A stretch of DNA of 64,000 bases from Anaerolineaceae bacterium (GTDB taxonomy: Bacteria > Chloroflexota > Anaerolineae > Anaerolineales > Anaerolineaceae): the NCBI GenBank assembly GCA_011620555.1, contig WOYY01000025.1, forward strand, positions 1 through 64,000, given 5' to 3'. Positions 8,800 to 59,947 of this stretch are shown piece after piece; the stretch's first letter is position 1, and every line of letters starts with the position of its first letter. The position numbers and the translations under genes were made by a program. The notes under the pieces are model-generated. The model was given only the letters and a program-made list of their open reading frames with translations. It did not search any database and had not been told where the DNA came from.

Positions 8800-11700
8800 G
8801 TGCTCCCCACCAGGGCCCGGCCGCCTGCCGGCATGTCTCCAAGTGGAATCCTCAAACTGGGTCAGAACCTGGCAGACCACCCCGTTCTCGAAAAACAAAA
8901 AACAGTGATTGTTAACTACCTGAAATCCAATTTCGGCGGTCAGGCCTATCTGCGGATCGATAAAGCCTTCCTGCCCCTGGATGACTCCCGCTCGTCCCTG
9001 AAAACGCCCTTTGACCTGACCGCCCTGAGCCAGGTCGCAGAAGCCAAAGAGGGCAAGTCCTTTTGGCTGGCCGGCCCAATGACCCACGGACAAACGCTGC
9101 TCGGCAGCCTGCTCGTGAAACGCAGCACACCCTTCACAGCGTTCGAAAAACAAAAAATGGGCGCAATCGGCGCCCTGGTGGGCACATCGCTCTATGCTAC
9201 CCTGCAATCCATGCAGCGGGAATGGCAGCAAAAACAGCTCGCCTTGGTCCAGTCGGTCAGTGCGCAGATCTCCCAGATCAACGACCTGGATTCACTGACC
9301 GCGGCCATCACCCGTTTGGTGCAGGAAACTTTTGAATACTATTATGTGGCCGTCTTCCTGATCGAGGAAGAAACCCAGCAACTCAAGTTCCAGGCCAGCG
9401 CCTGCTCCGTTGAATGTGATCGTCCTGATTTTGAATCGCCGGACCATCCCGGGTTCGCGCTTGGCGAGCACATGATCGGGTATGTGGCTGAAACCGGCCA
9501 GGAACTGGTCGCGCCGGATGTGACCCAGGAACCGCGCTACAAGGAAGTGGACTCGCTGGATGACACCCGTTCTGAGGTCGTCCTGCCGCTCTCGGTCACT
9601 GGGACGATCTTCGGCGTTTTTGATATCCAATCCGACCGGATCTACGGTTTCAATGAAAATGACCTGATCGTGCTGCGGGCTCTGGCAGCCAATATTTCCA
9701 TTGCCATTGAAAGCACCAGGCTTTATCAAGACCTTCAGCGCCGCGCAGACCAGATAGCCACGGTGGCGGAGGCCAGCCGGGCCCTGACCCAGATCCTGGA
9801 TACCGACCAGCTCCTGCAGCGGATCGTGGACCTGATCCACAGCCGTTTCAGGTTCCCCTTCGTCCACCTCTACCTGGTTGATCCGCTCCAGTCGCAGATC
9901 ATTTTTAAAGCAGGCAGCGGTGAACGGAGTGAGCGGTTCAATGAAGCTCATGTGGCCTTTGACCTCGATGCGGTCAAAGGCGTGATCCCCTGGGTTGTGC
10001 AGCACAACAAGAGCAAACGGGTCAACGACGTGGAGAAGGAACCGCTCTATCGCAACACCCCCTTTGCAGAAGACCGCTCCGGTTCCGAATTGACCATCCC
10101 GCTGCAATTTGGTGATGAGGTCCTTGGCGTTCTGGATATCCAGAGCGGAGAACGAAACGCCTTCACCGCCGAGGACCAGCAGCTGGTGGAAACCTTTGCC
10201 GATAACATCGCCATCGCGATCCGCAATGCCCAGCTCTACCGCTCGGAAAAGTGGCGCCGCCAGGTCGCTGAGAGCCTGCGGGATGTTGCCAGCCTGCTCT
10301 CGAATAACGCTGCCCTGGATAATGTGCTTCAGGCCATCCTGGAACAACTCCACAAAAACCTGCCCTGCGACGCGGCCGGCATCTGGCTCTTCGATCCTCA
10401 GTCTACGAGAGAGACCCCCGTAGAGGAACGCCAGCTTTACCTGGCGGCCGCCCTCGCCGCGGAGGGGATGGAATCGGAGGACCTGGGACAATTGACCTTC
10501 CTGCCGGATGCCTGGGTGAAGAAAGCTCTGATGCAGGAGCAGCCCACCATCCGCCACCCGGAAGAGACCATCGGGCCCATCGCCGCCCACTATCAATTCG
10601 GCAGCGATTACTCCTCAATCTCCGCGCCGCTCCATATCGGCGATGAGATCCTTGGTATGCTCACGCTGATCCACCACCAGCCAGGCCGCTACGGTTTGGA
10701 ATCGCAGAAGATCACCTCCACCTTTGCCAGTTACGCCGCGATCGCGATCGAGAACACGAGGCTCTATGAGATCTCACAGGAGCAAGCCTGGGTTGCCACC
10801 ATCCTGCTGCAGGTCGCTCAGGCCACCCAATCCCAAACCAACCTGGAGGAACTAGGCCACACTATCGTCCGGCTGACGCCGATGGTCGTTGGGATCAAGG
10901 GCTGCGCGCTTTTCCTGCGCAACCCCGCCAACGATATCTACAGCCTGTGGGCGATCTACGGCATCGGCCCCTCCAGCGAACCGCCGGAATTCACTTTCCC
11001 GCTGCCCCTGCCCAATGCCGTCCTGCTGGCAGAACTGACCCTGACCGGGGAGCCCCTGCTGGTCATTGACCCCGAGGAGGACCTCGGCCTGCCGGAAGCG
11101 CTCGGGGAGGACCTGCTCGGGGACACCCTGATCCTGCTGCCGATCATTGCCCATGATGAAGTGCTGGGCGCCTTCATGCTGGCAAACGACCCGGCCCTGC
11201 CCGCTGTGGCGGGAAATCAACCATTGATCAGTGAAGAGCGGATGAGCATCATCCGCGGGATCATCCAGCAGACGGCTGTAGCGGTCGAGAACATCCAATT
11301 GCTGGAAGCCCGGCAGGAAGAGGCCTATATTTCCACCGTCCTCCAGCAAACGGCCCAGACCGTGGTCAGCAGCGCAGACCTGGTGGACACGCTTGATTCC
11401 GTTGTCCACCTGATGCTCATCCTGGTGGGAATTGAATCCAGCGCAATCTATATGTGGGACGGGGTGGACAAGGTTTTCATCCTCAGTGAAACAACGGATA
11501 AACCCCTCGAGGAGGACGAAACCCTGATCGGAACAACTTACGCCCCTGGCGATTTCCCGATGCTGGACACGGTGTTCAATAACGATCAACCTTTCGCCTT
11601 CCCATTTATCGAAAATGTCCTGCCGATCGAAGACTGGGACCTGGTCCTGCCGGATGACCGGCAGATGGATCCCACCCCCATTCTGGAAAGCCAGTATCCG

Positions 11701-12672
11701 CTCCTGCTGGGTTTCCCCCTTTCAGCCAAAGACGAACGCTATGGCGTCCTGATGGCGCTGGACCGCAACCTTTCCGCCAAGCGGGACCGCCGCTTTGAAC
11801 TGATCCACGGGATCGCGCAGCAGGTCTCGCTCGCCATTCAAAATGACATTTTAAACAAGGAAATGCTGGACCGCCAGCGGCTGGAACGGGAATTCCAGCT
11901 GGCCCGCGAGATCCAGCAGACCTTCCTCCCCACCCAAATTCCCCCCATACCCGGCTGGGAAATGGATGTCCGCTGGAATACCGCCCAACAGGTCGGCGGC
12001 GATTTCTATGACTATTTCCTGCTGCCGGATGGCCGCCTGGCCGTCATCATTGCGGATGTGTCCAACAAGGGTCTGGCCGCGTCGCTCTACATGACCGTGA
12101 CCCGGACCCTGATCCGGGCGGCCGCGCTCGAATCCACCTCCCCCGCCCGGGCGCTGGAAAGGGTGAACGAACTCCTCTTGATGAATTCCCAAAATGGTTT
12201 GTTCGTGACCACTTTCTACGGCCTTTTGGATATGGCCAGCGGCGTCCTGACCTACACCATAGCCGGGCACAACCCCCCACTGGTGATCCGCAACCGCGAA
12301 GGAAAAATTGAAGCGCTGAATCGGGGGGGGATTGCTCTCGGCGCCTTGCCCGATATCCACCTCGAAGACCGGACGCTCGAACTTGCACAGGGCGACTGTC
12401 TGCTGCTGTATACCGATGGGGTGACGGAGGCATTCAACAACGGCGACCAGATGTATGGCACCCCGCGCCTGATGGCGCTGTTGAGCCAGACCTTCGGGCT
12501 GTCCGCCCACCAGATATTAACCAATCTGGAAAAGGACCTTCTGGATTTCAGGGATGCCGCGCCCCTCAGCGACGATACGACCATTTTGGCGATCTGCCGA
12601 GAAAACTCACTGGCAGACCAGGACAGGGACAATGGTCTTCCTGAGAACCCCATCAACGGTGCTGCCAAATAA
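8800..12672 (+). CDS. multi-GAF domain SpoIIE-type PP2C phosphatase
   Basis: repeated GAF-like segments (for example GVFDIQSDRIYGFNENDLIVLRALAANISIAIES); C-terminal VGGDFYDYFLLPDGRLAVIIADVSNKGLAASLYM and LLLYTDGVTEAFN. Confidence 0.95.
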   Translation: MLPTRARPPAGMSPSGILKLGQNLADHPVLEKQKTVIVNYLKSNFGGQAYLRIDKAFLPLDDSRSSLKTPFDLTALSQVAEAKEGKSFWLAGPMTHGQTLLGSLLVKRSTPFTAFEKQKMGAIGALVGTSLYATLQSMQREWQQKQLALVQSVSAQISQINDLDSLTAAITRLVQETFEYYYVAVFLIEEETQQLKFQASACSVECDRPDFESPDHPGFALGEHMIGYVAETGQELVAPDVTQEPRYKEVDSLDDTRSEVVLPLSVTGTIFGVFDIQSDRIYGFNENDLIVLRALAANISIAIESTRLYQDLQRRADQIATVAEASRALTQILDTDQLLQRIVDLIHSRFRFPFVHLYLVDPLQSQIIFKAGSGERSERFNEAHVAFDLDAVKGVIPWVVQHNKSKRVNDVEKEPLYRNTPFAEDRSGSELTIPLQFGDEVLGVLDIQSGERNAFTAEDQQLVETFADNIAIAIRNAQLYRSEKWRRQVAESLRDVASLLSNNAALDNVLQAILEQLHKNLPCDAAGIWLFDPQSTRETPVEERQLYLAAALAAEGMESEDLGQLTFLPDAWVKKALMQEQPTIRHPEETIGPIAAHYQFGSDYSSISAPLHIGDEILGMLTLIHHQPGRYGLESQKITSTFASYAAIAIENTRLYEISQEQAWVATILLQVAQATQSQTNLEELGHTIVRLTPMVVGIKGCALFLRNPANDIYSLWAIYGIGPSSEPPEFTFPLPLPNAVLLAELTLTGEPLLVIDPEEDLGLPEALGEDLLGDTLILLPIIAHDEVLGAFMLANDPALPAVAGNQPLISEERMSIIRGIIQQTAVAVENIQLLEARQEEAYISTVLQQTAQTVVSSADLVDTLDSVVHLMLILVGIESSAIYMWDGVDKVFILSETTDKPLEEDETLIGTTYAPGDFPMLDTVFNNDQPFAFPFIENVLPIEDWDLVLPDDRQMDPTPILESQYPLLLGFPLSAKDERYGVLMALDRNLSAKRDRRFELIHGIAQQVSLAIQNDILNKEMLDRQRLEREFQLAREIQQTFLPTQIPPIPGWEMDVRWNTAQQVGGDFYDYFLLPDGRLAVIIADVSNKGLAASLYMTVTRTLIRAAALESTSPARALERVNELLLMNSQNGLFVTTFYGLLDMASGVLTYTIAGHNPPLVIRNREGKIEALNRGGIALGALPDIHLEDRTLELAQGDCLLLYTDGVTEAFNNGDQMYGTPRLMALLSQTFGLSAHQILTNLEKDLLDFRDAAPLSDDTTILAICRENSLADQDRDNGLPENPINGAAK

Positions 12673-27634: not shown

Positions 27635-28429
27635 ATGATGAAACTGATTTTAGATTTGATTGAAGAGCATCTGCGCGCGTTGTTCGAAGACGCCCTTTAC
27701 AAGCTCACCCCTAACTCTGACGGCCCGTTCAATTTGATCGAGCAGTTGTCCACGACCATCCTGATCAACACCGTGGAAAATAACAAGGGCATTGTTTATG
27801 CCCCTGACCGCTACCGATTCCTGATCCCGGAAGACCAGATGCCCGGCTGGCGGGCGCAACAGGACCTGCTCAACCAGCTCACCTATGAACTGCAATCCCT
27901 GGGGAAAATGTACGATTTTAATTTCCTGACCACCCCGGAGATCACACTGACCAGCCACCCGGACCGGTCAAACTCAAAGGTCATCATCCAGGCGGAGCAT
28001 TCGGCGCCTGTGCCCGACCTGCCCGACACGGCCGCCATGGAACAGCCCCAGCCCACAATCCCCTTGCCGGCCATTCCCGCCAATGCCTTTCTGGTGGTGG
28101 GCGGCCGGACCAATTACCCGCTGGATAAACCGGTGGTCAATATCGGTCGCCACTCCGATAACGATCTCATTCTGGATGACCCCCATGTCTCCCGCCATCA
28201 CGCCCAGCTCCGCGCGATCAACCGCCGTTATGTGGCTTTTGATGTCGGCTCCACCAGCGGCATCCTGCTCAACGGCAGGAAAGTCACCCAGGCGACGCTC
28301 CGGCCCGGGGATGTCTTGCGCGTTGGGATGGTCAATCTGATCTACATCCAGGATACGACAGCTGAGCAGCCGACCTCGGCCTTCTACGTCGATTCGGAAG
28401 ATCCGCCTTTCGGAGATAAACACCCATGA
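27635..28429 (+). CDS. FhaA-like protein (DUF3662 N-terminus plus FHA domain)
   Basis: FEDALYKLTPNSDGPFNLIEQLSTTI N-terminus; FHA core VNIGRHSDNDLILDDPHVSRHHAQLRAINRRYVAFDVGSTSGILLNGRKV. Confidence 0.9.
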   Translation: MMKLILDLIEEHLRALFEDALYKLTPNSDGPFNLIEQLSTTILINTVENNKGIVYAPDRYRFLIPEDQMPGWRAQQDLLNQLTYELQSLGKMYDFNFLTTPEITLTSHPDRSNSKVIIQAEHSAPVPDLPDTAAMEQPQPTIPLPAIPANAFLVVGGRTNYPLDKPVVNIGRHSDNDLILDDPHVSRHHAQLRAINRRYVAFDVGSTSGILLNGRKVTQATLRPGDVLRVGMVNLIYIQDTTAEQPTSAFYVDSEDPPFGDKHP

Positions 28430-28848
28430 ACGCCTTGTTATTATTCATCATCCGTCTGATCACGCTCCTTCTGCTCTACCTCTTTATCGGTTGGATCGCC
28501 TACACCATCTTCATGGACCTGCGGAAGACCAATCAACCCGAAAGCAAGGTCAGCGTCACCCCCATCACCCTGATCCAGGCGAATGATGATCTGGGCGAGT
28601 CCCGCCAGTTCGTGGCGCAGGAGGTCCTCATCGGCCGCGATCCGGCCAACCCCTTCTATCTTGAGGACGGCACCGTTTCTGTGCGCCATTTGAAATTGAC
28701 CTTTCGCAATCAGCATTGGTGGGCCGAAGATCTCGAATCCACCAATGGGTCCTATCTGAATGGCGATCAAATCCTATCCCCCGTAATCCTGACCGATGGC
28801 GACGAGCTGCGGCTTGGGCAGGTCGTGCTCACCGTCAGGATCAATTAA
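28426..28848 (+). CDS. membrane-anchored FHA domain protein (FhaB-like)
   Basis: N-terminal TM; VLIGRDPANPFYLEDGTVSVRHLKLTFRNQHWWAEDLESTNGSYLNGDQI. Confidence 0.92.
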   Translation: MNALLLFIIRLITLLLLYLFIGWIAYTIFMDLRKTNQPESKVSVTPITLIQANDDLGESRQFVAQEVLIGRDPANPFYLEDGTVSVRHLKLTFRNQHWWAEDLESTNGSYLNGDQILSPVILTDGDELRLGQVVLTVRIN

Positions 28849-28868: not shown

Positions 28869-29735
28869 ATGAATGACATCCCCGTATTGGCTGTGATCGG
28901 TGGCTCTGGATTATATGAATTTGAAGACATCACCGATGTTGAAACCCTTGAAGTTGCGACCCCCTATGGCAACCCCAGCTCCCCCATCACCATCGGGCGG
29001 ATCAAGGGTAAAAAGGTCGCCTTTTTGGCGCGGCATGGCATAGGCCACACCTTTTCTCCCAGCGATGTCCCCTACCGGGCAAACATCTATGCCCTGAAAT
29101 CCCTGGGAATCAAACGGGTCGTCAGCGTCAGCGCCTGCGGCTCCCTGCGGGAAGCCTATGTCCCCGGCTACATCGTCATCCCGGACCAGATCTTCGATTT
29201 CACCCACAAACGAGAGCGGAGCTTCTTCGGCAAAGGCTTGGTCGCCCATGTCAGCGTGGCAGAACCCTTCTGCCAATCGCTCTCGGATACGCTGGAAGAA
29301 GCCGTCAAGGCCAATGACGCCCTCTATCACCGCGGCGGCACTTATATCACCATTGAAGGCCCGCGCTTCTCCACCAAGGGCGAATCCCGTCTCTACCGTC
29401 AGTGGGGGCTGGACATCATCGGCATGACCGCCGCCCCGGAGGTCTTTCTCGCCCGTGAAGCGGAGATGTGCTACACCACGATGGCCCATGTCACGGACTA
29501 TGACGTTTGGCATGTGAACGAAGCGGCGGTGACCGTGGAAATGGTGATCGAAACCCTGCAGAAAAATATCAAACTGGCCCAGAACACCATCCGCACCATG
29601 GTCGATCTGATCGACCCGGATGCCGACTGCGCCTGTGAGGACGCCCTGAGCACCGCGGTCATCACCCATCCCAGCGCCATTGAACCCGAAAAACGCCAAG
29701 AAGTGGATTTGCTGGTCAGGAAGTATCTGGATTAA
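28869..29735 (+). CDS. mtnP: S-methyl-5'-thioadenosine phosphorylase (MTAP/PNP family)
   Basis: VIGGSGLYEFEDI, RHGIGHTFSPSDVPYRANIYALKSLGIKRVVSVSACGSL, IIGMTAAPEVFLAREAEMCYTTMAHVTDYD. Confidence 0.95.
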   Translation: MNDIPVLAVIGGSGLYEFEDITDVETLEVATPYGNPSSPITIGRIKGKKVAFLARHGIGHTFSPSDVPYRANIYALKSLGIKRVVSVSACGSLREAYVPGYIVIPDQIFDFTHKRERSFFGKGLVAHVSVAEPFCQSLSDTLEEAVKANDALYHRGGTYITIEGPRFSTKGESRLYRQWGLDIIGMTAAPEVFLAREAEMCYTTMAHVTDYDVWHVNEAAVTVEMVIETLQKNIKLAQNTIRTMVDLIDPDADCACEDALSTAVITHPSAIEPEKRQEVDLLVRKYLD

Positions 29736-29737
29736 CC

Positions 29738-32377
29738 GTGGATCGTTTATTTCCCATCCGCGAAGAGGATTCCCAGGTCAATAAGCTCCAGAGCCGCCTG
29801 CTGGTCATCGCTGCGCTGCTGGTGCTCGCCCTGGCGATCACCCTGACGATCAGCCCTGCCGTGCGCTATCACACCGGCGGTGAGGATTACCGCTGGTCGC
29901 ACTGGCTCGGTGTTCTGGGCTGGTTCGCGGTTTTCACCGTGCTGAACAGGCAGTCCAGGCGGAAACTCCCTCACCGGGACCCTTACCTGCTGCCCATTGT
30001 GGCCGCCCTGACCGGGATCGGCCTGATGATGATCTGGCGGCTCTATCCAGACCTGGGCCAACGCCAAACGATCTGGCTGGTCCTTTCGGGCGGGGTGGTT
30101 TTCCTGGGTTTGGCCTATCCCCAGGTCCTGACCTATCTGAAAAAGTACAAATACATTTGGCTGGTCCTTGGCCTGATCCTGGTCGGCCTGACGATCATCT
30201 TCGGGCAAAACCCAAGCGGGTCAGGCCCGGCTCTGTGGCTGAAAATCTTTGATTTCTATTTCCAGCCCTCCGAACCGCTCAAACTCCTGATGGTCGTCTA
30301 CCTGGCGGGTTTTTTCACCGACCGCTTCATCCTCAAGAAAAACAGGCTTGCGCCCATCTTCCCCACCCTCGTTGTGGTTGTCATGGCGCTGGCATTGCTC
30401 ATCTCCCAAAAAGACCTCGGGACCGCGATTATCTTCCTGGCGCTTTACCTCCTGATGCTCTATTCGATCAACGGTAACCGCTGGGTGATCTGGGCAACAC
30501 CTTTGGTCCTGCTCATTGCCGGCACAATCGGCTATCTTTTCATTGATATCGTCCACATCCGCCTATCGACCTGGTTGCACCCCTTCGCCGATCCAAGCGG
30601 TAGTTCCTACCAGATCATCCAGTCCATGATCGGGATCGCATCCGGCGGCACTCTGGGCACCGGACTGGGCATGGGCAGCCCTGGACTGATCCCGGTGGCC
30701 GTTTCCGATTTCATTTATGCCGCCATCGGTGAAGAGCTGGGCCTGGTCGGGCTGCTGGTGGTTGTCGGTCTGATTGCGCTGCTCGTCTACCGGGCCGTCA
30801 AAATCGCGAATCAGTCCACCGATATTTTCAACCGCTATCTGGCCAGCGGGATCGCCTATTATTTTGGCTTTCAGAGCATCCTGATCATCGGCGGCAACAT
30901 TGGCCTGCTCCCCCTGACGGGCGTCACCCTGCCCTTCATCTCCTACGGCGGCTCATCCCTGCTGGTTTCCTTCATTGCCCTGGCGATCTTGCTGACGATC
31001 AACGAAGCGCCGCAGGAAGGATCCAACACCCAGCCCGCCCCCCGCAATCCAAAAACCAACTGGTCTGCGATCATCCTGGTCGGCTTTCAGGTCCTCGAAT
31101 TCCTGGTCAGCAGCCTTTACGGCTTTTGGTTTAAAGACGCTCTCATCGCCCGCCCGGAAAACCCCCGCTGGGCCATCGCGGACCGCTTTGTCCCTCTCGG
31201 CGATATCGTGGACCGGAATGGACAGGTCATCGTCAACAGCACAGGTGAGATTGGCGAAATCACCCGCGCGGCGGTCTACCCCGCCCTTTCACCCATTGTG
31301 GGCTATACCAACTCCATCTACGGCCAGACCGGGATCGAAGCCTCGATGTACCCCTATTTGCGCGGCCTGGTCGCGGAACGCGATCTGAAAGCCGCCACTC
31401 TTGAATGGGTCAATAACCAGCCCCCCGAAGGATTAGACGTCCGGCTGACCCTGGACCTGGGCATCCAGCAGACCGCGGACGAGCTACTGGGCGATAGCCG
31501 CGGGGCTGTGGTCCTGATGAATGCTGAGACGGGTGAAATCCTGACCATGGCATCCCACCCCTATTTCAACCTGGAGACGCTGGAGGAAGATTGGGCGTCT
31601 TTCAGCGATGAAGAGAACGGCCCCTTGGTCAACCGGGCGACCCAGGGAACCTACCCCATCGGGAGCGCACTTTTCCCCTTCCTCTTGGCCGATCAGATCG
31701 ATATCACTTCCAGTTTCGCCCGCCCGGAAAGCATCCTCCCCAGTCTCTCCATCGGGCCGCAATGCGCCACCCTGCCCCAAACTCTGGACTGGATGTCCAT
31801 TGTGACCCACGGCTGCGTGAACGCCCAGGCGGACCTGGCCGCCTATACAGGCTTGAATCCAGTCCAGAACCTCATCCAGCGCCTGGGCTTCTATTCCAGC
31901 CCGAACCTGCGGCTAACCGTGGCGCAATCCGCCCAAACCGGTGTGACCGATGAACGGGCGTTCTTCCGGGGCGAGGACCTGCTGGTCAGCCCGCTGCAGC
32001 TCGCCATCGCAGCCAGTTCGCTCTCCAATGACGGCACACTGCCCGCCCCCCGGATCGTGATCGGCTATGAAAATCAGGATAATCGCTGGGTGACCCTGCC
32101 CAAATTGGACAGCAGCAGTGCAGCTTTCACCGCGGACCGGGCGGGTCGCCTGACAACGCTCTTGGAAAACGACGCTGCCCTTCAATGGCAGGTCACTTCA
32201 ACCACGGAGACCGAAGAAGGCGAACCGGTCACCTGGTTCATGGCCGGCTCCTCCGCCAACTGGCAGGGGCAGCCTTTTGTCGTCGTGGTCGCTCTGGAGG
32301 CAGAGGCACCGGAGCAGGCCGCCGATCTTGGGTTGACCCTGCTCAACAGGGCCATGAACCTGACCTCAAACCATTAA
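29738..32377 (+). CDS. FtsW/RodA/SpoVE-type SEDS protein fused to a degenerate penicillin-binding-protein-like domain
   Basis: N-terminal SEDS region (LKIFDFYFQPSEPLKLLMVVYLAGFFTDR, LISQKDLGTAIIFLALYLLMLY, TGVTLPFISYGGSSLLVSF); C-terminal PBP-like region (DIVDRNGQVIVNSTG, LTLDLGIQQTADELL, GAVVLMNAETGEILTMASHPYFN). Confidence 0.92.
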   Translation: MDRLFPIREEDSQVNKLQSRLLVIAALLVLALAITLTISPAVRYHTGGEDYRWSHWLGVLGWFAVFTVLNRQSRRKLPHRDPYLLPIVAALTGIGLMMIWRLYPDLGQRQTIWLVLSGGVVFLGLAYPQVLTYLKKYKYIWLVLGLILVGLTIIFGQNPSGSGPALWLKIFDFYFQPSEPLKLLMVVYLAGFFTDRFILKKNRLAPIFPTLVVVVMALALLISQKDLGTAIIFLALYLLMLYSINGNRWVIWATPLVLLIAGTIGYLFIDIVHIRLSTWLHPFADPSGSSYQIIQSMIGIASGGTLGTGLGMGSPGLIPVAVSDFIYAAIGEELGLVGLLVVVGLIALLVYRAVKIANQSTDIFNRYLASGIAYYFGFQSILIIGGNIGLLPLTGVTLPFISYGGSSLLVSFIALAILLTINEAPQEGSNTQPAPRNPKTNWSAIILVGFQVLEFLVSSLYGFWFKDALIARPENPRWAIADRFVPLGDIVDRNGQVIVNSTGEIGEITRAAVYPALSPIVGYTNSIYGQTGIEASMYPYLRGLVAERDLKAATLEWVNNQPPEGLDVRLTLDLGIQQTADELLGDSRGAVVLMNAETGEILTMASHPYFNLETLEEDWASFSDEENGPLVNRATQGTYPIGSALFPFLLADQIDITSSFARPESILPSLSIGPQCATLPQTLDWMSIVTHGCVNAQADLAAYTGLNPVQNLIQRLGFYSSPNLRLTVAQSAQTGVTDERAFFRGEDLLVSPLQLAIAASSLSNDGTLPAPRIVIGYENQDNRWVTLPKLDSSSAAFTADRAGRLTTLLENDAALQWQVTSTTETEEGEPVTWFMAGSSANWQGQPFVVVVALEAEAPEQAADLGLTLLNRAMNLTSNH

Positions 32378-47504: not shown

Positions 47505-50027
47505 ATGACAGACAAGATCAAAACCCTCCTCAGCCGCTGGCGAACCCAGCCCACCATCGCAGAAAACGTGGTGGAATGGCGCATCCTCGCGCAAAAACCG
47601 GCTGACCTGAGGGATTACCCGCCCCAGCTCTCCCTGGAACTCAGGGCCTACCTCACTGACCGGGGAATCCCTTCCTTATACATCCATCAGGTCCTGGCCT
47701 ACGAAAAGGTCCAAAACGGCGAGAATATCGCCGTGATCTCCGGCACGGCCAGCGGTAAAACCTACTGTTACAACCTGCCGGTAGTAGACAGCCTGCTGAA
47801 GCACCCCGAGGGCAAAGCGCTGTACCTCTTTCCCACCAAAGCCCTGGCGCAGGACCAGCTCGCCGGCCTGCGGGAGATGCTGCACAGCCTCAACCGCCCG
47901 GACATCAACCGGGCCAATATCTACGACGGCGATACGCCGCAACATCTCCGCTCGCTTTACCGCCAGCAATCATCCATCATCCTCACCAACCCCGACATGC
48001 TCCACACCGGCATCCTGCCGCATCACACCAGCTGGAAGGACTTCTTCACCGCCCTGCGTTTTATCGTGATCGACGAGATGCACGCCTATCGCGGCGTCTT
48101 CGGCTCGCATGTCACCAATGTGATCCGCCGGCTCAAGCGGATCAGCCGCTTCTATGGTAGCCAGCCCCAGTTCATCCTGACCTCTGCCACAATCAGCAAC
48201 CCCCAGCAGCTCGCCGAAGGCCTGATCGAAAAACCCGTCAGCGTGATCGAACAGGACGGCTCGCCCCACGGCGAGCGCCATTTCCTGATCTACAACCCGC
48301 CCATCCTCGACAAAAAAACCGGCATCCGCCAAAGCTCGCTGCTGGAAGGGTCCATGCTGGCCGGTGAACTCCTGGCCGAGGATATCCAGACCATCGTCTT
48401 CGGCAAAACTCGGCGGAGCATCGAACTGATTCTGACCTATCTCCGCCAGCGGGACCCGAACGGCAATCCCAATGAGATTCGCGGCTACCGCAGCGGCTAC
48501 CTCCCCCGCGAAAGGCGCGCCATCGAAGAAGGCCTGCGTCGGGGCGAAGTGAAGGGCGTGGTAGCCACCTCGGCCCTCGAACTGGGGATCGACATCGGCG
48601 GGATGGATGCCGCGGTGCTGATTGGCTATCCCGGCAGCATCGCCGCCACCCGCCAGCAGGCCGGCCGGGCCGGGCGCAAGCTCGCGCCTTCCCTCTCCGT
48701 GCTGGTCGCTTCCCCCAACGCGATGGATCAATACCTGGCGCGGCATCCCGATTACTTCTTTGGCCGTTCACCCGAACGCGCCCTGATCGCGCCCAACAAT
48801 CTCCTGATCCTGCTCCAGCATATCCGCTGCGCGGCTTTTGAACTCCCCTTCCAGGTGACCGAAGGGTTCGGCGCAATCCCCGTGGAGGAGCTCCAGGCTT
48901 TCCTGGAGTTGCTGAGCAAGGGCGGCGAACTCCACCACCAGGCGGGCCGCTATTTCTGGATGGCCGACCAATACCCGGCAGCGGATATCTCCCTCCGCAA
49001 TGCCACGCCCGATCAGGTCAGCCTGATCCTCAAAGGCGAACACCGCCAGGAGACCATCGGTCAGGTGGACCTGGCCAGCGCCTACTGGATGGTGCACCCG
49101 GATGCGATCTACCTGCACGAAGGGACTTCCTACCTGGTGGAAAACCTGGACCTGGAAACCGGCGTGGCTTATTTGAAGCCCGCCTATGTGGACTATTACA
49201 CGCGGGCCAGCAAAGAGACCAAGGTCGAAGAGCAATCCCTGATCAAAACCGAACCCGTCACCGGCGCGCAGAAAAGCCTGGGCGAGATCCTCGTGACGAA
49301 CAAGGTCGTGGGCTACAAGCGGGTCCGCTGGTTCACCCACGAGAACCTGGGCAGCGGCAAGGTGGACCTCCCCCCCAGTTTTCTAAACACGGTCGGCTAT
49401 TGGATTTCAATTAATGAAGCGACCGTTGACCAGTTGAAGGATCAAATGGTATGGAACGCCGACCCGAACGATTACGGCCCGGATTGGGAGGATATCCGCC
49501 AAAAAGTGATGAACCGCGATGGCAATACCTGCCAGGTCTGCGGCGCATCGGGCAGTCAGCAGCCCCTGCATGTCCACCATATCCAGCCCTTCCGCAGTTT
49601 TGCCAGCCGGGAGACGGCCAACCAGCTGCAAAACCTGATCACCCTCTGCCCCACCTGCCACCACCTGGCGGAGACCCGCGTCCGGGTGCGCAGCGGCATG
49701 GCGGGGTTCAGCTATGTGCTCGCCAGCCTCGCTCCGCTTTTGATCATGTGCGATGGCGAGGATATTGACGTCCATTACGACCCCAACGCCACCCTGGGCG
49801 GCGGCCAGCCCACGGTGGTGCTGTTCGATAACATCCCCGGCGGCCTGGGGCTGAGCGAGACCCTCTATGACCTCCACCAGGACCTGCTGACCCAGGCCTA
49901 CGAAACCGTCGCCTATTGCGAATGCGAGGATGGCTGTCCCTCCTGCGTCGGCCCGGTGGGTGAAGAAAGCTCGGGCGGCAAGCCGGAAACACTGGCATTA
50001 TTGAAAGCGTTGATCGGTCATGCCTGA
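47505..50027 (+). CDS. MrfA/YprA-like DEAD/DEAH helicase with an internal HNH domain and DUF1998-type C-terminus
   Basis: ISGTASGKTYCYNLP, VIDEMHAYRGVFGSHV, QQAGRAGRK; HNH-like RDGNTCQVCGASGSQQPLHVHHIQPF...ANQLQNLITLCPTCHHLAE; CECEDGCPSCVGP. Confidence 0.92.
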   Translation: MTDKIKTLLSRWRTQPTIAENVVEWRILAQKPADLRDYPPQLSLELRAYLTDRGIPSLYIHQVLAYEKVQNGENIAVISGTASGKTYCYNLPVVDSLLKHPEGKALYLFPTKALAQDQLAGLREMLHSLNRPDINRANIYDGDTPQHLRSLYRQQSSIILTNPDMLHTGILPHHTSWKDFFTALRFIVIDEMHAYRGVFGSHVTNVIRRLKRISRFYGSQPQFILTSATISNPQQLAEGLIEKPVSVIEQDGSPHGERHFLIYNPPILDKKTGIRQSSLLEGSMLAGELLAEDIQTIVFGKTRRSIELILTYLRQRDPNGNPNEIRGYRSGYLPRERRAIEEGLRRGEVKGVVATSALELGIDIGGMDAAVLIGYPGSIAATRQQAGRAGRKLAPSLSVLVASPNAMDQYLARHPDYFFGRSPERALIAPNNLLILLQHIRCAAFELPFQVTEGFGAIPVEELQAFLELLSKGGELHHQAGRYFWMADQYPAADISLRNATPDQVSLILKGEHRQETIGQVDLASAYWMVHPDAIYLHEGTSYLVENLDLETGVAYLKPAYVDYYTRASKETKVEEQSLIKTEPVTGAQKSLGEILVTNKVVGYKRVRWFTHENLGSGKVDLPPSFLNTVGYWISINEATVDQLKDQMVWNADPNDYGPDWEDIRQKVMNRDGNTCQVCGASGSQQPLHVHHIQPFRSFASRETANQLQNLITLCPTCHHLAETRVRVRSGMAGFSYVLASLAPLLIMCDGEDIDVHYDPNATLGGGQPTVVLFDNIPGGLGLSETLYDLHQDLLTQAYETVAYCECEDGCPSCVGPVGEESSGGKPETLALLKALIGHA

Positions 50028-54283: not shown

Positions 54284-57067
54284 TTGGCAAAAACAGTTCA
54301 GGGCAAGACCTATCAATGGCGCTTAGGCGATGCACCCATCGGCAGCGGCGATGCCGGTGAGGTCTATGCCGTCGCGTGTGTGGGCCAGCCTGAACTGTCG
54401 GGCGTCCTAAAACGGCCGGCCCATATCGCCACCGGCGGCACCATCCAGCGTCAGGCCGGTCAGATCGCCCAGGAGGGGCTGGCGCTCGCCCAGCTCGAAG
54501 GCCTGCCAGCCTGCAAAGCCCATCCCCCCCTGATCCTGGATGAGGCCCCGGCGTTCACCCAGGGCACTGCCAATTACTTCATCGTCAGCGAGACGGCCCC
54601 AGGCGAGGATATGGCAACCATGCTGGCGCGCACCCGCCTGGAAGGCATCCCCTTCCCCCGCCGGGTGATCCTGACGGTGCTGGACGCCCTCTTTGACCTC
54701 TTTGCCCGGGCGCACCGGATCGGGGTGCTCTGGAATGACGTCAAGCTCGAACACATCTATTGGGATAACGCCACCGGCGGCGTGGCTGTGATCGACTGGG
54801 GCAACGCCCAGTTCCTCGCAGAACCCAACGGTCAGCGTCGGGCGCTCCCCCGCTGGGAGGACTACCGCCAGATGGTTGATACGCTGGGCGGCTTCCTGCA
54901 GCAATCCGCGCCGGAACTTTATGAAGACCTGGGCTGGTCGGAGTTTCAGGGCGCGGAGCTGGACCTGCCGCAGATCTCCGTCCTGGCGCGCCGGATTGAT
55001 TACCAGCACGAGGTGATCGCCCTGCAGGTGATGGAATATCAAGCGCTCATCCGGGTCGTGCTGAACAGCGACCCCAGCCTTGAGGGTCTCCAAAAAATCC
55101 AGAGCTACCAAAAGACCCTGCTCCGGATCGGCGCGCCCTGGGAAGCCCCGGCCGTGCTCGACTATGGCCGGCGGCTTGTGGAACAGGCGCTGGACCAGGG
55201 CGATTCGCAGGACGCCATCCGGGCCACCACGATCATTTGGGACCTCTTCGGCGAGACGCTGGACCTCTCCTGGCATCTTTTGCGGGAAGTCTTCCGCAAC
55301 CCAGAGCTCCTCAGCCATGCCGAAATGGAGGCGGTGGTTCGGTCGATACTGCACGAAAATTGGGCCCAGACCCTCTGGCATCTGGCCATAATCGCCCAGG
55401 AAACCGGTCCATCCGGCTGGTGGGAGCAATTGGTCCCGGTCATCCGGCAGAAAGCCCTTGGCTCCACCACGCCCCTCCCCCTGCAAATGGCCTATTCTCT
55501 TCTGGATTGGACCCAGTCCGGCCCCTCGATCGACCCGGTGGCCAGCGCCGATCTGCACAGCACAATTGACCATTGGCGTTCAAAAGGCGCGGATTTTAAG
55601 GACAGCCCCTTTGAATATGCCCTGTTGGAAATGGCCCGCGGCCAAAACGACCTACCCCGGCGGCTTCGCACGGAGTTGAGATCCGGGTTCGCCGCAGGCG
55701 AAGATGCGATCCGGAACCTGCTGCAGGCCTGGGTGAACATGGATTGGGAAGAACTCCCCAAGGCTTTTCGCCAGGTCATCGCCTGGGACCCTGACCGCTG
55801 GGGTGTGCTCACTTCAGCCGAGGCCGTGCTTAAATTCCAGGCCTGGCTGGACCGCCTATATTCCGGTCCGGCAGATCCGCGCAACGCCGCCGATTTCCTC
55901 GCGGGCCTGATGGAAGAACGTCTGCCGCTGGAACGCCTGCTGGGCAATCCCCCCTGGCTCCAGGCCCTGCTGGAACTGCTGGCTCGAATCCGGGCCGGGG
56001 AGTACCTCGCCGATCTCCAGGCGGGGATCCAAACCTGGTGCCCCTGGCTCTCGGGTTACGAGACGATCTACGATACGCAGCCAAAGTTGGCCGCTCCCAA
56101 TGCGGAATCGATCGAAAAAGTGCTGGCCCATTTCAGCCAGCATCTCAAGAATTGGTCCGATCTGGATAACGGGCTGGAAAGCGTCAGGGCCATTGCCCCT
56201 GCTTTTTACCCAGCCTGCCGGCGGCTCGCCGATGGCTTCCAGACCGTTTTCCACCTCAACGCCGACCCGGATGAGATCAAAGGCGATTGTGCAGCAGCGG
56301 ACCACCCCGCCCTGGCGGAGGGCTGCGCCGTCCTCCAGGCCCTGATCGGCTGGCGGGAAGCGCTCAGGGGGCAGGATTACGACCTGGCCCTTGAGGCGCT
56401 CAGCAGCGAGTCCCACCCCGGCTGGCGGATTTTGGAACACGCCCAGACGGTGACCCGGGATTGGATCACAGCTGTTCAGCCCTGCCTGGATGCCATCTCC
56501 GCCCAGAAGGCCCAGGTCTGCCCTGGCAAGCAACCAGATTTGCAGGCCGTGCAGGATAGCTTGGCCGCAATGATCCACCAATGGGACCGGGTTTACACCA
56601 CCCGGCCGCACCAATCCCTGCTCGAATCCCTTGAGGCGGAAAGCGACACGCTGCAAAAAAGCTTCTACGCCTGGCGGAATGGACTGGACCACGACCCGGA
56701 CCCGATCACCCATTTGCTTTACCACAACAACCTGGAGCAGATCCGCGCCATCTCAGACACCTTCCTGAAATTGGCCCAGCGCACCCGCCAAGCCAGGTTG
56801 AGCCACAGCAATCTGGAAGGGGATGACACCCTGCCCTATGCCAAACAGGTCCAGGCGGGCGAAAGCCTGCTGGATCACCTCGCAGCCATCGAAGAACTTC
56901 TGGTTCCGGATGAAACAGCCCGCCGCTTCCCGACCTGGCAATCCACTTTTCACGCCATCACCAGCCTGCATGCCCTGGCGGAACAGCGGGAGGCCATCCT
57001 CGAAATGGATAATACGCACCCGCTCTATGCCTGGCTAATACAATCCACCCTTGCACGGGATATCTAA
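54284..57067 (+). CDS. large protein with divergent protein-kinase-like N-terminal domain
   Basis: Gly-rich IGSGDAGEVYAV, GVLKRP, catalytic-loop-like LWNDVKLEHIYWDNATGGVAVIDWGNAQ; TTG start. Confidence 0.75.
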   Translation: MAKTVQGKTYQWRLGDAPIGSGDAGEVYAVACVGQPELSGVLKRPAHIATGGTIQRQAGQIAQEGLALAQLEGLPACKAHPPLILDEAPAFTQGTANYFIVSETAPGEDMATMLARTRLEGIPFPRRVILTVLDALFDLFARAHRIGVLWNDVKLEHIYWDNATGGVAVIDWGNAQFLAEPNGQRRALPRWEDYRQMVDTLGGFLQQSAPELYEDLGWSEFQGAELDLPQISVLARRIDYQHEVIALQVMEYQALIRVVLNSDPSLEGLQKIQSYQKTLLRIGAPWEAPAVLDYGRRLVEQALDQGDSQDAIRATTIIWDLFGETLDLSWHLLREVFRNPELLSHAEMEAVVRSILHENWAQTLWHLAIIAQETGPSGWWEQLVPVIRQKALGSTTPLPLQMAYSLLDWTQSGPSIDPVASADLHSTIDHWRSKGADFKDSPFEYALLEMARGQNDLPRRLRTELRSGFAAGEDAIRNLLQAWVNMDWEELPKAFRQVIAWDPDRWGVLTSAEAVLKFQAWLDRLYSGPADPRNAADFLAGLMEERLPLERLLGNPPWLQALLELLARIRAGEYLADLQAGIQTWCPWLSGYETIYDTQPKLAAPNAESIEKVLAHFSQHLKNWSDLDNGLESVRAIAPAFYPACRRLADGFQTVFHLNADPDEIKGDCAAADHPALAEGCAVLQALIGWREALRGQDYDLALEALSSESHPGWRILEHAQTVTRDWITAVQPCLDAISAQKAQVCPGKQPDLQAVQDSLAAMIHQWDRVYTTRPHQSLLESLEAESDTLQKSFYAWRNGLDHDPDPITHLLYHNNLEQIRAISDTFLKLAQRTRQARLSHSNLEGDDTLPYAKQVQAGESLLDHLAAIEELLVPDETARRFPTWQSTFHAITSLHALAEQREAILEMDNTHPLYAWLIQSTLARDI

Positions 57068-58129: not shown

Positions 58130-59947
58130 ATGCTGAAAGACCTCATCCAACGGGCAAGGACCGTTCTGGATCAACCCCATCCACCGGAGCAGGAACTGGT
58201 GGAAGTTGAAAACGCGTTAAGCGCTTTCCTGGAAGCTTTAGCCACCGAACGCATCGCCGAACCCGTCGACTTCACCGAACTCGAGCACGCCAACCGCCTG
58301 CTGCGGGAAATCCGGCGGGAGCGCTCCCGCCGCCTGGCCGAGCTGCAACATCAGGAACAAAAAGAGCAGCCCGCCCCGCCCAAAGGTGCGCCGACCAGCT
58401 CATCGCAGGCCGCGCTCAATATCTCGCCCCAGTTCGGCGATGATGACACTTACGATCCCCTCCGCAAATTCCTCAGCTCCAGCCACGACCCGGAAGCCGA
58501 AGCCGTCATGGACTCGGCCGAAGAGGCTTTTTACGCCGGCAATTACCAGAAGGCCATCCCACTCTACGAGAATGTGCTCCAGATCGAGCCGGGCTGGTCC
58601 CGCGCCAAGGAACACCGCGACGAAGCGGAAGAATTCCTGCGGACCGGGAACATCCCTTCCGTCGCCCTGCCGCCGGACGCCGGCAAGGCCTACGGCAAAG
58701 CGCAATCGGCGGCCCGTGTTTTCCGCTATCAGACCGCGCTCGACTACCTCGAAGAAGCCTTCACCAGCCTGCAGGAAGCTGGGATCAACCGCTGGCGGGA
58801 GGGGGAAGACCTGCGCCAGGACCTTGAGAACCAGATGCAGGCCCACGATGTCTATGAAGAGGGGCTGGCCCTGCTCCGCCAGGGTGATCTCCAAGGCGGC
58901 CTAGCCAAAGTGCAGACCGCAGCCAGCGCGGTTGCCCTGCCCGAATATGTGGACAAAGCCAGTGAGATCCGCAGTGATATTTCTGCGCTGGACGAGATCG
59001 CTGATGTGATGAACCTCAGCGGCAACATCCCGCCCGAAAAACTGGCGGAAGCCCGAACCAAACTGGACCGTCTTTCGATTAAATACGGCGAGATCCCCCA
59101 GATCTCCCGCCTGCGCAACCGGATGGACATCGTCCTGCCGGCCGTAACCGCCTCATTGCTGGATAAGATCAACCGGCTCAAGCGCCAGGGCGATGCGGCC
59201 ACAACGCTCAAAACGGCCAAAACAGCCTATGATGGCGCAGTTGAGGCCCTGGCAACCCTGCAGGTCCTCACGCCGGACACCCCCCAGGGCAAAGCTCTCC
59301 AGGCGGAAGCCCAGGAAGCCCAGCATGAGGTGGAAACACAGGAAGAAAGCCTCAGGCGCGCCGTGCAGGCTTTGAACACCGAAAGCCGCTTCTTTCCCCG
59401 CAATGCCTACCTGATCAGCAAAGCCGTGCGCTCCCGCTTCCCGGAAGATCCGGAAGTGCTGGACCTCAAACGCCGGCTGCGCTGGTATTACGTGACCCTC
59501 TATGGCGGCGGCGGGATTGCAGGCATCCTGCTGATCCTCGCCCTGTGGTTCGGCGGCCGCGGAATCACCACGGCCGTGCATAACCGGAATTTGGCGCTGA
59601 CCCCGTCCCCCACCGTGACGGCAACCATCACCCAGACGCCGACGATCACCCCCACGCCAACGATCACCCCCACGCCTACGCCGGATAGGACGGCCACCCC
59701 GCAGTACACGCCCACCTCCACCCCGGTGATCACCGGGACCATGAAGCGCACCGTCTGGGTGCGTGAGGGCTGCTATGAGGATGAAGTTGCCAAGAGCCGC
59801 ATCCCTGAAGGCGCTGTGGTCACGCTGATCTCGATCCCCGAGCGGGTCTTTGATAACCTGAACCGGGAATGCGTCCTGGTGGAATATCGCACGGAAGATG
59901 CTTCAGCCGTGGGCTACGTCCTGCTGATAGATATGACCATCCCCTGA
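58130..59947 (+). CDS. coiled-coil/TPR-like membrane protein with Thr/Pro-rich linker and C-terminal SH3-like region
   Basis: repeat-like EAFYAGNYQKAIPLYENVLQIEPGWSRA; TM YYVTLYGGGGIAGILLILALWFGG; TPTITPTPTITPTPTP linker; C-terminal TVWVREGCYED...VGYVLL. Confidence 0.75.
   Translation: MLKDLIQRARTVLDQPHPPEQELVEVENALSAFLEALATERIAEPVDFTELEHANRLLREIRRERSRRLAELQHQEQKEQPAPPKGAPTSSSQAALNISPQFGDDDTYDPLRKFLSSSHDPEAEAVMDSAEEAFYAGNYQKAIPLYENVLQIEPGWSRAKEHRDEAEEFLRTGNIPSVALPPDAGKAYGKAQSAARVFRYQTALDYLEEAFTSLQEAGINRWREGEDLRQDLENQMQAHDVYEEGLALLRQGDLQGGLAKVQTAASAVALPEYVDKASEIRSDISALDEIADVMNLSGNIPPEKLAEARTKLDRLSIKYGEIPQISRLRNRMDIVLPAVTASLLDKINRLKRQGDAATTLKTAKTAYDGAVEALATLQVLTPDTPQGKALQAEAQEAQHEVETQEESLRRAVQALNTESRFFPRNAYLISKAVRSRFPEDPEVLDLKRRLRWYYVTLYGGGGIAGILLILALWFGGRGITTAVHNRNLALTPSPTVTATITQTPTITPTPTITPTPTPDRTATPQYTPTSTPVITGTMKRTVWVREGCYEDEVAKSRIPEGAVVTLISIPERVFDNLNRECVLVEYRTEDASAVGYVLLIDMTIP

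Follow-up and report, generated by a model that had tools for sequence, protein, structure and literature searches.

SEDS polymerases need a class B penicillin-binding protein (bPBP) as partner; in model organisms this partner is the cross-linker too, and the two jobs are separable only by mutation. The actinobacterial operon has the layout fhaA-fhaB-pstP-rodA-pbpA-pknA-pknB. In the RodA-PBP2 pairs of E. coli and T. thermophilus, the SEDS protein is activated by the stalk of a bPBP that is itself a separate, active transpeptidase, and bPBPs are described to activate SEDS proteins via interface I (PBP2 on RodA) and to restrain them via interface II (PMC10257715). Moreover, a bPBP without catalysis can still support its SEDS partner. 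The catalytically inactive SpoVD S311A of C. difficile functions through SpoVE and the catalysis of B. subtilis PBP2b is dispensable (PMC12713402), whilst S. aureus PBP1* without transpeptidase activity retains its regulatory function (PMC9426605). Natural SEDS-PBP fusions have also been mentioned (PMC10449877). SEDS-bPBP pairs, their fusions and the laboratory separability of bPBP catalysis from activation are thus already known. In the open literature that we searched, with most subscription papers outside its scope, we found no report of a natural, ancient and clade-wide pseudoenzyme bPBP, whether in fusion with an intact SEDS protein or as its separate partner, nor any paper on the SEDS proteins of Anaerolineae.

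Here we describe such a protein from a window of 64,000 nucleotides, the whole stretch of DNA analysed, of an Anaerolineaceae bacterium. Positions 29738-32377 of the + strand, on which all features given below lie, hold one uninterrupted frame of 879 aa with a GTG start and no internal stop, encoding a SEDS polymerase, a membrane helix and a PbpA-type pseudo-transpeptidase in a single chain. An earlier note, made from the sequence alone, had proposed one 879-aa ORF with a SEDS and a class B PBP domain, and Pfam searches bear this out at exactly these positions. The SEDS (FtsW/RodA-type) glycosyltransferase domain spans residues 1-430 (29738-31027), with a match to FTSW_RODA_SPOVE (PF01098) at residues 88-423 (E 4.6e-71, profile positions 7-352 of 356). 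It is followed by an extra transmembrane helix or linker at residues 438-466 (31049-31135), modelled by AlphaFold as a helix from 438 to 464, that stands in for the N-terminal membrane helix of a normal bPBP. The stalk or pedestal, corresponding to the PbpA dimerisation domain, occupies residues 467-585 (31136-31492); PBP_dimer_2 is matched only weakly in this protein (488-565, below the PF21922 cut-off) and PF21922 is found in 40 of 43 family members. The pseudo-transpeptidase domain comprises residues 586-879 (31493-32374), with a Pfam Transpeptidase match at 589-788 (E 2.3e-13); PF00905 is present in all 43 family members.

The AlphaFold model of the fusion, built with 44 aligned homologues, has a mean pLDDT of 89 and a pTM of 0.84. 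Its SEDS domain matches chains of P. aeruginosa FtsW, E. coli RodA and T. thermophilus RodA. The closest Foldseek matches to the extracellular part are M. tuberculosis PbpA and the PbpA-type PBPs of Eggerthella lenta and Atopobium, with TM scores of ~0.7-0.75. Since PbpA-type proteins top this list, PbpA is the nearest family rather than PBP2 or FtsI.

The gene neighbourhood points the same way as far as the upstream genes are concerned. An FhaA-like protein (FHA domain, weak FhaA_N; 27635-28429), an FhaB-like protein (hydrophobic N-terminus and FHA domain; 28426-28848) and S-methyl-5'-thioadenosine phosphorylase (MTAP; 28869-29735) are encoded upstream of the fusion, both here and in most relatives in which the transpeptidase is dead (dead-TP), MTAP being the immediate neighbour in these lineages. 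Most active actinomycetotal pairs are also preceded by FhaA/FhaB-like genes. As these genes are common to both, the dead-TP locus may be taken as orthologous to the actinobacterial rodA-pbpA locus, an assignment that the gene order supports. However, SEDS and PBP form one chain here and the transpeptidase motifs are lost, the MTAP gene sits in between in the window, and no PASTA domain was matched in this 96% complete genome, hence no PknB-type PASTA kinase was found; four Ser/Thr protein kinases are encoded elsewhere. Other genes of the window encode a protein of 1290 aa that combines several GAF domains with a SpoIIE phosphatase domain (8800-12672), a DEAD/DEAH helicase with an MrfA Zn-binding domain and an HNH motif just before it (47505-50027), and two long ORFs of 927 and 605 aa without Pfam match (54284-57067 and 58130-59947).

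Alignment with orthologues shows what has become of the transpeptidase site. The landmarks of a PBP can be located in the fusion, as had been reported before (DRNG, LTLDLGIQQTAD, GAVVLMNAETGEILTMASHPYFN, TYPIGSALF, HGCVN, LLVSPLQLA). The former SxxK reads Ser643-Ala-Leu-Phe646 (31664-31675), with its Lys lost, and the SxN column reads Gly692-Cys693-Val694 (31811-31819), both in agreement with the earlier reading of SALF and HGCVN. Loss of KTG was likewise correctly called, yet it had been placed at MAGSSAN, ~18 residues too far downstream: the KTG column is Val819-Thr820-Ser821 (32192-32200), whilst MAGSSAN (835-841) aligns with the W-F-x-G-F-A-P strand that lies downstream of KTG in active relatives, and W833, just before it, aligns with a tryptophan present in 97% of the active and dead sets alike. 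The conclusion is unchanged. Each of the Ser, Lys, SxN and KTG columns is intact in 39/39 of the active orthologues from Chloroflexota, and the motif loss is therefore not an accident of alignment. The note would have been refuted by intact Ser, Lys and KTG residues elsewhere in the chain; such displacement can be ruled out, as neither S..K nor K[TS]G occurs anywhere after residue 465, where only three lysines remain (466, 551 and 789). Since SxxK, SxN and KTG are all missing, the protein would, judged by its residues and with no penicillin-binding data at hand, be a homologue of a penicillin-binding transpeptidase and not a functional one.

We considered whether the domain has gained a different catalysis, for example with Cys693 replacing the Ser nucleophile. 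Cys676 and Cys693 (31763-31816) are the only two cysteines of the whole protein and are co-conserved in 57 of the 88 dead orthologues, with neither present in 29 and only one in 2. Some active orthologues, however, carry the pair as well, roughly one third of the dead ones lack it or have it deleted, and no equivalent of Lys or KTG is left, so that a new enzyme is very improbable. The strict co-occurrence fits a disulfide instead: as the two residues are retained or lost jointly, a structural Cys676-Cys693 bond is likely, an expectation from co-conservation without geometry data.

A survey of close relatives, the class and the phylum (Chloroflexota) yielded 88 orthologues in which both SxxK and KTG are gone, 66 of them fused to SEDS and 22 separate, against 39 with both motifs and one that has kept KTG and lost SxxK. 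A second, named orthologue set, obtained with an alignment as query after a single protein had returned no related loci, gave the same split. Nearly all of its Chloroflexota matches are dead and, judged by title, mostly from Anaerolineae, including Levilinea, Leptolinea, Longilinea and Bellilinea, whilst the intact members come from Actinomycetota, Bacillota and one Chloroflexota locus (L212). Sequencing error or a pseudogene, which the survey might have revealed, can be excluded, since relatives with 74% full-length identity or less share both the fused frame and the motif loss, and dN/dS is low. We also discarded the fusion itself as the novelty: besides the published mention, active fusions with the same domain order in one ORF are found in Lachnospiraceae and Eggerthellaceae. 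These, however, keep STFK, S-x-N and KTG; the unusual part is the clade-wide loss of catalysis, not the fusion. The most reduced members of the survey are L120-L125 (family f18), whose pseudo-transpeptidase domains are strongly shortened and lack the SxN segment.

To place the loss, the SEDS-domain tree was rooted with Actinomycetota and Bacillota orthologues; an earlier tree rooted on the genome's own RodA and FtsW had been misled by very long outgroup branches and was replaced. The 36 sampled dead-TP rows of Anaerolineae form one clade (support 96/86), sister to family f20, and the active L085, L088 and L089 branch just outside. Because the outgroup is not perfectly monophyletic, the order of the deepest branches is uncertain; that the dead clade nests inside active lineages is nonetheless supported. 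As far as can be read from these sequences, the tree shows one old inactivation inside the class Anaerolineae. Within the dead clade, the fusion arises at several separate places. In family f20, L064 (G127) is fully intact and its near relative L114 (G065), without SxxK but with KTG, is half-eroded; L114 is a possible intermediate of inactivation. Elsewhere in the phylum, L105 (G215) is a dead SEDS-PBP fusion in which SxxK and KTG are lost (YPTGPLAQIV; LLA); it falls outside the dead clade in the tree and is apparently a second, independent loss.

Could the whole protein then be a functionless, decaying relict? Some near-complete relatives gave no match to the gene: G031 (a single contig), G027 and G050 yielded just two SEDS genes each, which suggests complete loss of the dead-TP fusion and makes the system dispensable in some lineages. 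Nevertheless, dN/dS is well below 1 in both domains, being ~0.08-0.26 for the dead PBP part and of the same order for the SEDS part (dS is near saturation in more distant pairs), which places the dead PBP domains under purifying selection rather than drift. The polymerase residues are kept, the synteny is stable and the gene is found across many families, and we regard a relict as scarcely credible.

This selection is uneven along the PBP part. Relative to SEDS, conservation of the stalk (467-585) is 0.92 in the dead set vs 0.84 in the active set, and that of the first part of the transpeptidase fold (586-640) is 1.08 vs 1.03. In contrast, the active-site region (641-800) falls to 0.59 vs 0.86 and the C-terminal part to 0.58 vs 1.08. 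Single residues are even better conserved in the dead set, as for R542 (0.90 vs 0.26) and R472 (0.93 vs 0.46); N475 and E534 are conserved as well. These ratios show, at the level of sequence, that the stalk was selectively retained whilst the former active-site region decayed. Moreover, about half or more of residues 655-735 is deleted in 25/88 dead domains and in none of the active ones. Sequence, homologue survey, structure model and selection tests thus support the proposal that a class B PBP without catalysis is tethered to a SEDS glycosyltransferase.

The same data bear on whether the pseudo-transpeptidase serves chiefly in recruitment or sensing, as a module that would bind stem peptides, nascent strands, an L,D-transpeptidase or another PBP and hand strands over without activating the polymerase. 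Its globular part is retained under purifying selection, many family members have a W-x-x-[AG]-G-T strand, and dead-TP genomes encode more YkuD (L,D-transpeptidase) proteins, with a median of 5 in 37 genomes vs 1 in 39 active ones, 14 of which have none. This excess is not phylogenetically independent evidence, as very few evolutionary events underlie it. The pocket region, moreover, is among the least conserved parts, and the members missing about half of the helical region speak against one conserved ligand site. We therefore consider such a module unlikely as the main role, although recruitment and activation are not mutually exclusive.

On the polymerase side the picture is the reverse. 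The residues whose roles were shown in E. coli RodA (PMC10449877), namely R48, W102, Q111, E114, K117, D159, R210, P257 and D262, have their equivalents kept in the dead-TP set: those of W102, Q111, E114 and D159 in 83/83, those of R210, P257 and D262 in 82/82 with one gap, R48 as R in 80/83 and K117 as K or R. In the window protein R109, W167, Q176, D226, R275, P319 and the catalytic D324 (30707-30709; E. coli RodA Asp262) are present and conserved. The fusion therefore shares its polymerase residues with the E. coli and T. thermophilus RodA-PBP2 systems, in which, however, PBP2 is a separate protein with transpeptidase activity, a larger pedestal and MreC as a partner. This contrast between retained polymerase residues and lost transpeptidase residues argues more strongly than any other single observation for glycosyltransferase activity as the selected function, which remains an inference from conservation. 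The SEDS part might instead be a lipid II transporter or regulator with the pseudo-PBP as its partner. The genome encodes two other SEDS-PBP sets, RodA-PBP2-MreC on contig C2 and FtsI with FtsW on C43 (names that rest on gene pairing and length), so that the cell could in principle do without a third polymerase. A non-catalytic protein, however, would not need the tested residues, of which the catalytic Asp alone is retained in 82/82, and we hold this to be improbable.

We therefore favour, with a probability of about 0.68, a SEDS polymerase tethered to a former PbpA-type partner that was inactivated in an ancestor within the Anaerolineae and now acts as a non-catalytic activator or scaffold, with cross-links made in trans. 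The SEDS part would still polymerise lipid II. As in RodA-PBP2, the PBP membrane helix and stalk would complete the polymerase and turn it on, though no stalk-SEDS contacts have been measured, and the globular remnant may serve as structural or docking mass. Activation by the tethered pseudo-PBP is well supported by sequence: the allosteric activator suggested in the earlier note has gained specific support from the conserved stalk, the retained polymerase residues and the published bPBP work, but its role is still inferred. Cross-linking in trans is conjecture. Without a transpeptidase site in the fusion, cross-links in its strands must come from enzymes in trans, which could be the cell's other intact PBPs and possibly L,D-transpeptidases. 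Besides the two named sets, three more PBP-type proteins are encoded on C49 and C94; SxxK and KTG are intact in all five other PBPs. The genome also encodes six YkuD proteins. To our knowledge, biochemistry is known for no member of the dead-TP family. Unlike this naturally fixed pseudoenzyme, SpoVD S311A, PBP2b and PBP1* are laboratory mutants or redundancy cases, and loss of bPBP catalysis gives defects in C. difficile (PMC12713402) and S. aureus (PMC9426605). Something must therefore compensate in the dead-TP lineage, and the compensator is unproven.

The single-chain format is convenient for structural and biochemical work, and the conserved remnant is a naturally occurring guide to the PBP features that a SEDS polymerase requires. 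We tentatively suggest, at somewhat less than even odds, a third, beta-lactam-insensitive SEDS synthase with a dedicated pseudoenzyme activator, in which uncoupled glycan polymerisation has become fixed and cross-linking is left to L,D-transpeptidases or other PBPs. The state of a polymerase without its transpeptidase, when brought about by beta-lactams, is generally portrayed as futile or toxic, and how a cell runs a polymerase without a dedicated transpeptidase is a physiological question that the family raises. Across a whole clade of Chloroflexota, the activator and cross-linker jobs of a bPBP seem to have been separated by evolution.
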